A stretch of DNA of 64,000 bases from an uncultured Sphingomonadaceae bacterium (GTDB lineage Bacteria; Pseudomonadota; Alphaproteobacteria; Sphingomonadales; Sphingomonadaceae). This document shows, piece by piece, positions 50,807 to 52,614 of this stretch (the stretch's first letter is position 1; each line of letters starts with the position of its first letter). The stretch spans positions 1,240,001-1,304,000 of the forward strand of contig CANMFX010000001.1 of assembly GCA_947497315.1 (NCBI GenBank), given 5' to 3'. The position numbers were made by a program, and so were the translations under genes. A model generated the notes under the pieces. It was not told the origin of the DNA. It worked only from the letters and a program-made list of their open reading frames with translations, and made no database searches.

Positions 50807-50903
50807 GAGCCACTACGCGGTTGCAAAATATGCAACTAATCAATCTCCGTTTTCAATTGAAACTTAACCGTTTGAGGACCATTTCCTGACTATCAGTTAG
50901 ACA

Positions 50904-50928
50904 GGAAAAGTGATGTTTGATCGGCGTT
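50904..50928 (+). promoter_or_regulatory. Candidate EcfG general-stress promoter
   Basis: GGAAA-N16-CGTT matches the alphaproteobacterial EcfG (sigma-EcfG) consensus GGAAC-N16/17-CGTT with one mismatch. It lies 25-50 bases upstream of the 24-codon ORF at 50953 and would drive the ORF and its sRNA-like 3' end. The -35 falls in a TTTCCTG/CAGGAAA inverted repeat (50882-50908). Dependence on stress sigma factor is inference. Confidence 0.55.
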
Positions 50929-50952
50929 TTTAACAAAACAGGAGTTTGTCCC

Positions 50953-51027
50953 ATGAAAACGCTTTTCAATATAGTAGCCGCCCTGACCGTTAGCAGCATC
51001 ATAATGATGACTACCGTTCAGGTTTAA
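50953..51027 (+). CDS. 24-residue hydrophobic peptide
   Basis: A tiny ORF with a good ribosome-binding site: AGGAG at 50940-50944, nine bases before ATG 50953. The peptide starts MKTLFNIVAALTVSSII, a charged start then a hydrophobic stretch, so it may be a single-span membrane peptide, and it ends at TAA 51025-51027. Promoter match upstream and the anti-SD hairpins with terminator downstream make it a discrete small transcription unit. No family recognised; the ORF may be mainly a leader for the RNA. Confidence 0.55.
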   Translation: MKTLFNIVAALTVSSIIMMTTVQV

Positions 51028-51048
51028 TCGCTACAAATTTTTTTCAGT

Positions 51049-51153
51049 CCCGGTTGCCGCTAATCCTCCTCCCGATAGGCACCGGGATTGTACCGACGGT
51101 CCGGCCCTTTCAGAATATCCCCCTCCCGAAAGGCCGGACCAACGGTTTTTTTT
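51049..51153 (+). ncRNA. Cuckoo/CcsR-like sRNA with CCUCCUCCC loops
   Basis: Two hairpins follow the tiny ORF. Hairpin 1 (51049-51086) has stem CCCGGT-GCC/GGC-ACCGGG with one bulged T and a loop containing CCTCCTCCC (51065-51073). Hairpin 2 (51098-51140) has stem GGTCCGGCC-TTTC/GAAA-GGCCGGACC with one bulged C and a loop containing CCCCCTCCC (51119-51127), then eight T (51146-51153). CCUCCUCCC loops in tandem hairpins behind a small stress-induced ORF are the defining layout of Rhodobacter CcsR and of the wider alphaproteobacterial cuckoo RNA family. Confidence 0.8.
51097..51153 (+). terminator. Intrinsic terminator ending the small RNA
   Basis: Stem pairing 51098-51111 with 51128-51140, followed by AACGG and eight T at 51146-51153. 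One of the best terminators in the window. Confidence 0.9.
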
Positions 51154-51198
51154 GCTTCTGGATCGCTATTCAAGACTGAGAGATAGCCAATAAAGAAA

Positions 51199-51229
51199 TA
51201 TCACAACGCGTCCTTTGTAGGAAAGCGGC
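51199..51229 (+). repeat. 31-bp dispersed repeat, copy B
   Basis: TATCACAACGCGTCC continuing through TTTGTAGGAAAGCGGC matches the inverted segment 12466-12496 at 29 of 31 positions. It sits just downstream of the sRNA terminator and 13 bases before the DnaA-box cluster. Confidence 0.65.
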
Positions 51230-51241
51230 TTCTTTCTGCCC

Positions 51242-51296
51242 TTGTCCACAATCCGGCAACTGTTTTTCCACAAGAAAGATCGACATCTGTGGATAA
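51242..51296. other. Cluster of three DnaA-box-like sequences
   Basis: TTGTCCACA (51242-51250) and TTTTCCACA (51264-51272) are near-consensus DnaA boxes; TGTGGATAA (51288-51296) is a perfect one in the other orientation (TTATCCACA). Three in 55 bases is dense. No AT-rich unwinding element or replication gene lies next to them, so whether this is an origin, a DnaA-titration site or chance is open. Confidence 0.45.
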
Positions 51297-51770
51297 CTGC
51301 ACCGGATCCATTTGGAGCGACTCGCAAACCCGTGTCATATAAAAGTCATCGGACGGAGTTTGAATGGAACCGGCGACCAGTCAGCAATGACCCGCTGGAA
51401 CGATCTAAAACCTGAAGATAGTCGAAACGAGCATGTTGTTTTTCGCAAGAAAGATAAAATGATCTTTCGATTGATGATTGGAAAAAACCCGCGAAGCGGA
51501 GGCGCAAGCCAAAGTGGAGCAGATGGACAACAATCATCGGGTGACTGGACCAATATCGGGTTTGAAACCGAAACATGATCGCGCAAGCGGAAATGTGGAC
51601 AACCGATAACCGCTAACGATATTGGCCCGGAAACCGGACGCCGGAAACGCGGACATTGAAATCGCAAGAGGACAATGGCCCAGATCAGGCGCAGTGGGAG
51701 CCGAAATCCGGACTTGTTCGGAGATCGACTCCCATTTTTTTTGCCTGCTATCATGTTGCGGTCCGGCGGA
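51297..51770. other. Gene-free spacer before the phage-like genes
   Basis: About 470 bases with several short ORFs on both strands, none with a recognisable domain, good start or normal codon use. Short GGAAAC/CCGGAAAC-like words recur at about 51530-51660. It may be degraded mobile DNA. Confidence 0.4.
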
Positions 51771-52361
51771 TCATTCCGTCGCCCCCATATGGTCTTCAAT
51801 CATCGTCTCGACATCCTCGATCGAAGCGCAGCTTTTGGAGAAATCGTCACACATGGCAACAAACGCATCTTCATCAACCTGCCGCCGCTGCCAAACAGTA
51901 ACCTCTGGTCGCTCGATCTGCTCGATCGCTGCCAGTGCACTTTGATCCAGACTATAGGTTTTCGCAGCAACAGTTTCGGCCAGCTCAGCATCATAATCCG
52001 CGACAATGTCCCAGCGCGGGCCGGCATAGTAAACCGCCGCGTACATGATCCGTGCCTTTGCGCCGCTGACTTTCGATGTCCGCATGGCTTCGTAAAACAT
52101 CCGGTGCGTCGCTTTCCATTCACGGGTGCGGATATCGCAATACCAGTCATGCACGACCGATGCCTTGCGATAGCGACCGACAAACGGGCTGCCAAGGATC
52201 GACCAGGCAAATTTCGGGATCGACGCGCCGTCCACCCGCACCATCGCTGGTACGCTCCACACCAGCTGCGCATCATCGACAAAGGCAAACCGGTTGAGCA
52301 GGGTCATGATCCGGCCATCCTCATCCCATTCAAATCGCGGTCGTCCGGTATAATGCGCCAT
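51771..52361 (-). CDS. DUF1353 phage-related protein
   Basis: A 196-residue DUF1353 protein, a family common in prophages and gene-transfer-agent-like regions. The core is VDGASIPKFAWSILGSPFVGRYRKASVVHDWYCDIR at about 50-85 with the conserved histidine-aspartate. The start at 52361 has AAAGGACAATCC upstream; a more distal in-frame ATG lacks one. Role unknown; possibly in phage particle maturation or lysis. Confidence 0.82.
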   Translation of the reverse strand: MAHYTGRPRFEWDEDGRIMTLLNRFAFVDDAQLVWSVPAMVRVDGASIPKFAWSILGSPFVGRYRKASVVHDWYCDIRTREWKATHRMFYEAMRTSKVSGAKARIMYAAVYYAGPRWDIVADYDAELAETVAAKTYSLDQSALAAIEQIERPEVTVWQRRQVDEDAFVAMCDDFSKSCASIEDVETMIEDHMGATE

Positions 52362-52614
52362 GGATTGTCCTTTCCGCCGCGTTTTCAATGCTCTCGCGGC
52401 CTGTATCGGGGCCTATCATAACATATTTGTCCTTTTCTTTGCCGACCAGTGACCGTCGTCACAAAGGGGCATGGAATCAGCCGCTACTACAATGAAGCGA
52501 TGCCGCTAATTCACAAAAAATTGTGGGGGGCGGCGGTGTCGCACCTCCACGGGAGCTTCGGCCTCGTGGTGGTTCTTCCCTTTTGGGAGCGCCCCAGTAA
52601 CTGGGCATTCCTCT

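Follow-up and report, generated by a model that had tools for sequence, protein, structure and literature searches.

A conserved micropeptide gene and a two-hairpin RNA form a putative CcsR-like unit in Parasphingorhabdus

The window, a stretch of 64,000 nucleotides from the genome of an uncultured member of the Sphingomonadaceae, contains a compact locus in which a very short ORF is followed by two RNA hairpins. The promoter-like motif GGAAA-N16-CGTT, the ORF with its AGGAG, the hairpins and the T8 tail all lie where a preliminary description, made from the sequence alone, had placed them. The features are listed below, with counts over the 30 loci that we compared.

50820-50836, no strand assigned: inverted repeat GTTGCA-N5-TGCAAC, about 60 bases before the inferred transcription start, found as a loose pattern in 27/30 loci; a possible activator site, judging from its sequence
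50857-50884, plus strand: candidate RpoH-type promoter TTGAAA-N16-CCATTT, lying within CTCCGTTTTCAATTGAAAC...GACCATYT, a conserved block
50904-50928, plus strand: GGAAA (50904-50908)-N16-CGTT (50925-50928), first described as a stress promoter; invariant in 30/30 loci, with CGTT in the predicted leader stem
50912-50972, plus strand: predicted leader hairpin, in which 50912-50931 pairs with codons 1-7 (50953-50972); folds in 30/30 loci
50940-50944, plus strand: Shine-Dalgarno sequence AGGAG, read in the sequence
50953-51027, plus strand: 24-codon ORF encoding the hydrophobic micropeptide MKTLFNIVAALTVSSIIMMTTVQV, recognized by its fixed length and codon change pattern
51045-51090, plus strand: hairpin 1, with loop CCUCCUCCC and sequence CCTCCTCCC at 51065-51073, based on covariation and loop motif counts
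51098-51140, plus strand: hairpin 2, with loop CCCCCUCCC and sequence CCCCCTCCC at 51119-51127, based on covariation and CTCC in 22/30 loci
51146-51153, plus strand: T8 terminator tail, with a T run of at least five in 8/30 loci

The ORF is exactly 24 codons long in all 30 loci. Pairwise comparison of the 28 distinct ORFs over codons 8-24 gave mean differences of 0.278 at the first codon position, 0.044 at the second and 0.383 at the third, and the low value at the second position is the pattern expected of a translated hydrophobic sequence. The 22 distinct peptides share the invariant residues M1, T3, L4, F5, N6, A9 and Q23 and have one hydrophobic stretch, with a mean hydropathy of 1.93 over 19 residues. 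No family in Pfam or NCBIfam matched the peptide at E-values up to 1, in agreement with the earlier statement that this ORF is not the DUF1127 protein. It had also been called a novel leader peptide. The short hydrophobic ORF without a family match is indeed there, but it is better described as a conserved 24-residue hydrophobic protein than as a leader. The proposed check of peptide conservation, run as a profile search of the family genomes, showed conservation within the genus (E < 1e-13 in 10 genus genomes), but elsewhere the E-values were 0.0135 or worse.

Among 60 relatives searched at the nucleotide level, 30 carried the locus. All 30 belong to Parasphingorhabdus (30/32 genus genomes), and none of the 28 genomes from other genera had a match. 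R1, a covariance model trained on these 30 loci, likewise detected it in 30/32 genus genomes, including all 24 that are near-complete (completeness of 90% or more, contamination of 5% or less). The genome that contains the window has a single R1 copy, the next match having an E-value of 3.3. When R1 was run across 397 family genomes, with ten candidates scored per genome, it matched 10 genus genomes, this one included, and one genome outside the genus. The outside match (G084; 33.1 bits, E 0.004) was rejected as a homolog; it overlaps long reading frames, and the best peptide match in that genome reached only E 3.2. With R1 and the peptide profile together, no convincing relative outside the genus was found among the 397 family genomes. 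A pattern scan of named records returned 44 stretches, 23 from sphingomonads and 21 from unrelated organisms, the latter taken as chance. Rfam gave no family at gathering level in the whole window, and none in five loci (this one and four relatives). At a lax threshold, seven matches fell within 50880-51200, among which the bacterial sRNA families were Atu_C10 (18.8 bits, cut-off 60) and ar14 (13.0 bits, gathering cut-off 58.8). The conserved micro-ORF and two-hairpin RNA, which probably form one unit, appear to be specific to Parasphingorhabdus among the genomes searched. Our literature search, for which subscription journals were mostly outside coverage, found no paper treating at least three of Parasphingorhabdus, Sphingorhabdus, small RNAs and transcriptomes together, leaving novelty in print unproven.

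The unit also has a fixed genomic position in the seven regions compared. A DUF4197-type gene lies directly upstream in each of them, identified by a Pfam match in the window and by a BLAST cluster in the six relatives. In these relatives, and also in the window, it is preceded by a gene that we labeled by eye as lipoprotein-like, which an overlapping frame masked in the window's gene calls. An SDR-like gene was masked in the same way in the window and in two relatives (L161 and L164). The protein genes to the right of the unit differ among the regions compared. In other genera, a simple hairpin and ORF scan over 700 nt found the unit behind DUF4197 in 0/29 loci, a count that omits 5/35 DUF4197 genomes and for which the end of the gene had been placed wrongly in two loci, L216 and L217. 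Single CTCC-loop hairpins were present behind DUF4197 in 4/29 of those loci.

This distribution bears on the idea that the ORF encodes a hydrophobic peptide in the style of type I toxins, restrained by the leader hairpin, with the 3' hairpins serving only as stability or termination elements. A peptide of 24 residues with a single hydrophobic stretch would fit such a toxin, as would a start region placed within a predicted hairpin. However, the unit is present in one copy in its own genome, in 30/32 genus genomes and in the same place in 7/7 regions. Mobile toxin-antitoxin pairs are unlike such a single-copy distribution at a fixed place, and a role in stability would not require conserved C-rich loops. 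We consider a toxin improbable.

The fold of 51040-51156 has a predicted energy of -49.7 kcal/mol (z = -5.35), which none of 200 shuffles equaled. Covariation was scored over 24 pairs in the 30 loci, which give 28 distinct rows. Across these rows, 97.8% of the hairpin cells pair, versus 95.0% in shuffles, and 10/24 pairs show double changes, versus 2.6 in shuffles, where the pair counts refer to sequences and not to evolutionary events. The covariation score was 0.241, compared with 0.181 for shuffles. Sliding the partners by 1-3 columns left 25-57% of cells paired and lowered the score to 0.04-0.12, with the caveat that the +1 slide still gives nine pairs with double changes. By this comparison of sequences, both hairpins covary.

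The loops are rich in C. Loop 1 reads CCTCCTCCC in 22/30 loci, CTCCTCCC in 26/30 and CTCC in all 30, while CCTCCTCCC by itself is unremarkable, occurring at 10 places in the genome versus 12 for the reversed pattern. Loop 2 contains CTCC in 22/30 loci. Of the eight without it, seven carry at least five consecutive C, while L036 lacks both. A T run of at least five follows hairpin 2 in eight loci (L009-L015 and L024), which are close relatives of the window, and is absent from the other 22. An intrinsic terminator is therefore not genus-wide. The two hairpins with C-rich loops of anti-Shine-Dalgarno type and the T8 tail that had been described are thus present, the T run being confined to these eight loci.

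Upstream of the hairpins, the sequence starting at AGGAAA and running through codon 8 was folded for all 30 loci. Every fold contained an identical inner stem, in which GGCGTT(TTT) pairs with the first codons, ATGARRACGC, and which is extended by GATGTTTGA pairing with TTCAATAT. UCC or CUC stands between the Shine-Dalgarno sequence and the AUG in 30/30 loci. Predicted unpaired probabilities ranged from 0.33 to 0.80 for the AUG and from 0.03 to 0.78 for the Shine-Dalgarno sequence, with values of 0.36 and 0.78 in the window. In these models, occlusion of the start region is partial. The leader fold energies are modestly below those of shuffles (z -1.2 to -3.3 in the 12/30 loci folded for this comparison), and covariation is silent on the leader stem because both strands are nearly invariant. 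Synonymous difference was 1.8% in codons 3-6, which were picked out after inspection of the data, versus 36% in codons 8-24. Codons 2 and 7 are more variable (0.16 and 0.53), and some later codons are slow too (codons 10, 14-16, 22 and 23, at 0.08-0.17). Start-proximal codons may also be conserved for other reasons.

Two further readings of the leader were considered. The hairpin could be an RNA thermometer acting with an RpoH-like promoter, since it is AU-rich and holds the start codon and Shine-Dalgarno sequence in one predicted structure. Warming from 15 to 55 C, modeled for 10/30 loci, raised the predicted accessibility of the AUG by 0.06-0.29. The rise was gradual, however, and accessibility of the Shine-Dalgarno sequence in the same 10 loci shifted by at most 0.10. 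Considering that the predicted change is small and gradual, we make no thermometer claim and rate this reading as very unlikely. Alternatively, a short upstream ORF (AGGA at 50903, ATG at 50913) could be translated and thereby open the leader hairpin, as in translation attenuation. Its Shine-Dalgarno-like AGGA and ATG occur at a fixed spacing in 30/30 loci, but the residues vary and the frame runs on into the main ORF in 7/30. A selected upstream peptide was rejected, as both residues and stops vary among loci, and attenuation of this kind has a very slight probability.

The predicted leader hairpin changes how GGAAA-N16-CGTT is read. In all 30 leader folds, CGTT seems to supply one arm of an RNA hairpin. 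If the 5' strand (50912-50931) is within the RNA, transcription must start upstream of the promoter first proposed. That promoter, of the EcfG or another ECF-sigma type, would start a short peptide-sRNA transcript near 50934, and the conserved block further upstream would then be an activator site. The GGAAA, the N16 spacing and the CGTT are invariant in 30/30 loci, and a start at this position would leave a short leader with the AGGAG. Several observations argue against it. All 30 loci read GGAAA at -35, never GGAAC, and the EcfG regulon motif GGAAC-N16-CGTT is found in 0/30 loci. According to the accessible text of a study on Sphingopyxis granuli, the AAC triplet of the -35 is almost invariant, with one mismatch in 3/79 boxes (PMC7083833). 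GGAAM-N16/17-CGTT is not enriched genome-wide, being rarer than its reversed control (108 versus 220). The spacer GATGTTTG is nearly invariant and able to pair with the ORF start, and codons 3-6 are frozen. The stress-type (EcfG) promoter of the preliminary description is thus doubtful, and leader RNA is the more likely identity of this segment. We regard a short transcript from an ECF-type promoter as unlikely, although on sequence grounds the site may be kept as a rival or second promoter.

The candidate promoter further upstream reads TTGAAA-N16-CCATYT in 26/30 loci, and TTG(A/C)A-N17-CCATYT in 29/30, the exception being L025. The RpoH-like pattern occurs at 10 places in the genome versus one for the reversed control, several of them inside genes or palindromes. 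For RpoH1, the motif CTTGAA-N15-16-CCTATAT has been published (Barnett et al. 2012, cited in PMC4843759), and the latter source gives rpoH1 as the sole rpoH in Sphingomonadales. CTTGAC-N15-CCCATAT stands in front of groES in the window's genome and in two close relatives. In the remaining 8/11 genus groES loci inspected, CTTGAC precedes TACATG instead, which makes the comparison useful for the window's own clade only. The -10 of our candidate (CCATTT) matches the consensus partially. From these sequence matches, we judge the chances that TTGAAA-N16-CCATTT is an RpoH-type promoter to be about even.

CcsR RNAs are known to carry CCUCCUCCC loops. Here, consecutive hairpins with loops of this type are present, with the exact 9-mer in loop 1 in 22/30 loci and a weaker loop 2. 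The resemblance to a cuckoo/CcsR-like unit noted in the preliminary description thus holds for the layout, a small-protein gene followed by tandem anti-Shine-Dalgarno hairpins. It does not extend to DUF1127 or to Rfam ar14, the latter failing the covariance search that had been proposed (see above). A DUF1127 search of 20 genomes, comprising 12 from Parasphingorhabdus and eight from other families of the order, gave no match, and among its 14 control genomes only E. coli gave one. Because this feature is missing, we describe the unit as CcsR-like but do not assign it to the CIN1 locus.

The closest comparison is with Rhodobacter sphaeroides. As described in the available text on that species, CcsR1-4 are products of the ccaF1 3'UTR matured by RNase E (PMC8307010, PMC8625941), and CIN1 is associated with DUF1127 and an RpoHI/RpoHII promoter (PMC10253847). 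The last was the only paper found to treat at least three of CIN1, DUF1127, sRNAs and Sphingomonadales together, in a search with partial coverage of subscription journals. Both systems place sRNA sequence, putative in the unit described here, in the 3'UTR of a small-protein gene, and the RpoHI/RpoHII promoter has a possible counterpart in the candidate RpoH-like site. They differ in that, as far as these sources extend, CcaF1 is a 71-residue DUF1127 protein and CcsR comprises four sRNAs, whereas Parasphingorhabdus has a 24-residue peptide without a family match and two hairpins. The Parasphingorhabdus unit also has a predicted leader hairpin on codons 1-7 and was found in a single genus only.

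Other anti-Shine-Dalgarno RNAs are also comparable. The ar14 family, which presumably models RNAs of the SmelA075, SmelA099 and RS0680a type, gave no profile match here (13 bits). To our knowledge, no ORF stands in front of GsrN of Caulobacter. The available text of PMC3927594 describes three hairpins carrying CCUCCUCCC in SmelA075, four in SmelA099 (both from Rhizobiales) and two in the shorter RS0680a of R. sphaeroides. Our unit shares such loops in consecutive hairpins, and its number of hairpins with RS0680a, but these RNAs occur in several copies per genome, compared with one in the window's genome. GsrN is a stress sRNA whose C-rich loop pairs with G-rich mRNA sites (PMC5869019). A C-rich loop is common to both, but GsrN is under sigma-EcfG control, whereas the EcfG box of the Parasphingorhabdus unit is off-consensus.

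Taken by analogy, the locus is probably, though by no means certainly, a genus-specific CcsR-like unit of a micropeptide gene, a structured leader and an anti-Shine-Dalgarno sRNA in the 3'UTR, working like the ccaF1-CcsR transcript. An upstream promoter, perhaps read by RpoH, would produce one short transcript, whose leader would fold onto the first seven codons and make translation of the single-span hydrophobic peptide low or conditional. The 3' part, perhaps after cleavage behind the stop codon, would act in trans as an sRNA whose loops may pair with the ribosome-binding sites of mRNA targets. What the comparisons show is a conserved ORF of fixed length, two covarying hairpins whose loops are rich in C, a leader with the potential to pair, and restriction to the genus among the genomes searched. 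Counting against it are a protein other than DUF1127, the poor ar14 score, the modest leader z-scores and the 22/30 loci without a T run. It also leaves the invariant GGAAA without account, and its RpoH-like part is weakened by the partial -10 match and the 8/11 groES loci that lack it. If the explanation is true, anti-Shine-Dalgarno hairpin sRNAs of Alphaproteobacteria can partner an unrelated hydrophobic micropeptide and not just an RNA-binding DUF1127 protein, and the recurring feature would be the arrangement of small protein plus sRNA, not the protein. The unit would also be a compact case of mutual constraint between a leader and the codons that open its ORF, perhaps with a promoter box involved too, for which the genetics are simple.

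It is rather improbable, but conceivable, that the RpoH-like and GGAAA-N16-CGTT promoters share the locus and decide the meaning of the RNA. The long transcript from the RpoH-like promoter would contain the strand that folds over the start and would mainly be an sRNA, whereas the short transcript from GGAAA-N16-CGTT would begin behind that strand and, lacking it, yield the peptide. If so, the same bases would act as the -10 box in the DNA and as the ORF-restraining strand in the RNA, giving a bacterial analog of a long non-translated transcript isoform.

Downstream of the unit lies a second conserved RNA-like element of about 400 nt (51290-51740, plus strand), which is GNRA-rich and has a terminator-like hairpin and T8. 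By nucleotide search, it occurs in 30/32 genus genomes, the same 30 as the unit. Rfam gave sub-threshold matches only (best E 0.78), and the single-base indels that separate relatives speak against coding. For its 3' end, GATCAGGCGCAGTGGG, a 25-nt match (96%) exists in a further genus of the family, where it directly precedes a strong terminator-like hairpin (L270; G032:C1:782400-784900), and this match suggests that the RNA may belong to a wider family. Ahead of the RNA (51245-51345) are sites resembling DnaA boxes, together with GANTC sites and a TATA-like box. In the 350 nt that follow the unit, three or four DnaA-like boxes are present in 24/30 loci, two in two loci and none in four. A replication origin beside the unit was rejected, as GC skew over 20 stretches of one relative showed no sharp switch. 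DUF1353 is a phage-type family, and a DUF1353 protein is encoded at 51771-52388 on the minus strand, where the protein genes of relatives differ. In two genomes (G031 and G006; loci L271 and L272), about 0.6 kb of extra DNA separates the unit from the 400-nt RNA, and in L272 the opposite strand of this DNA contains a reading frame of 190 codons.
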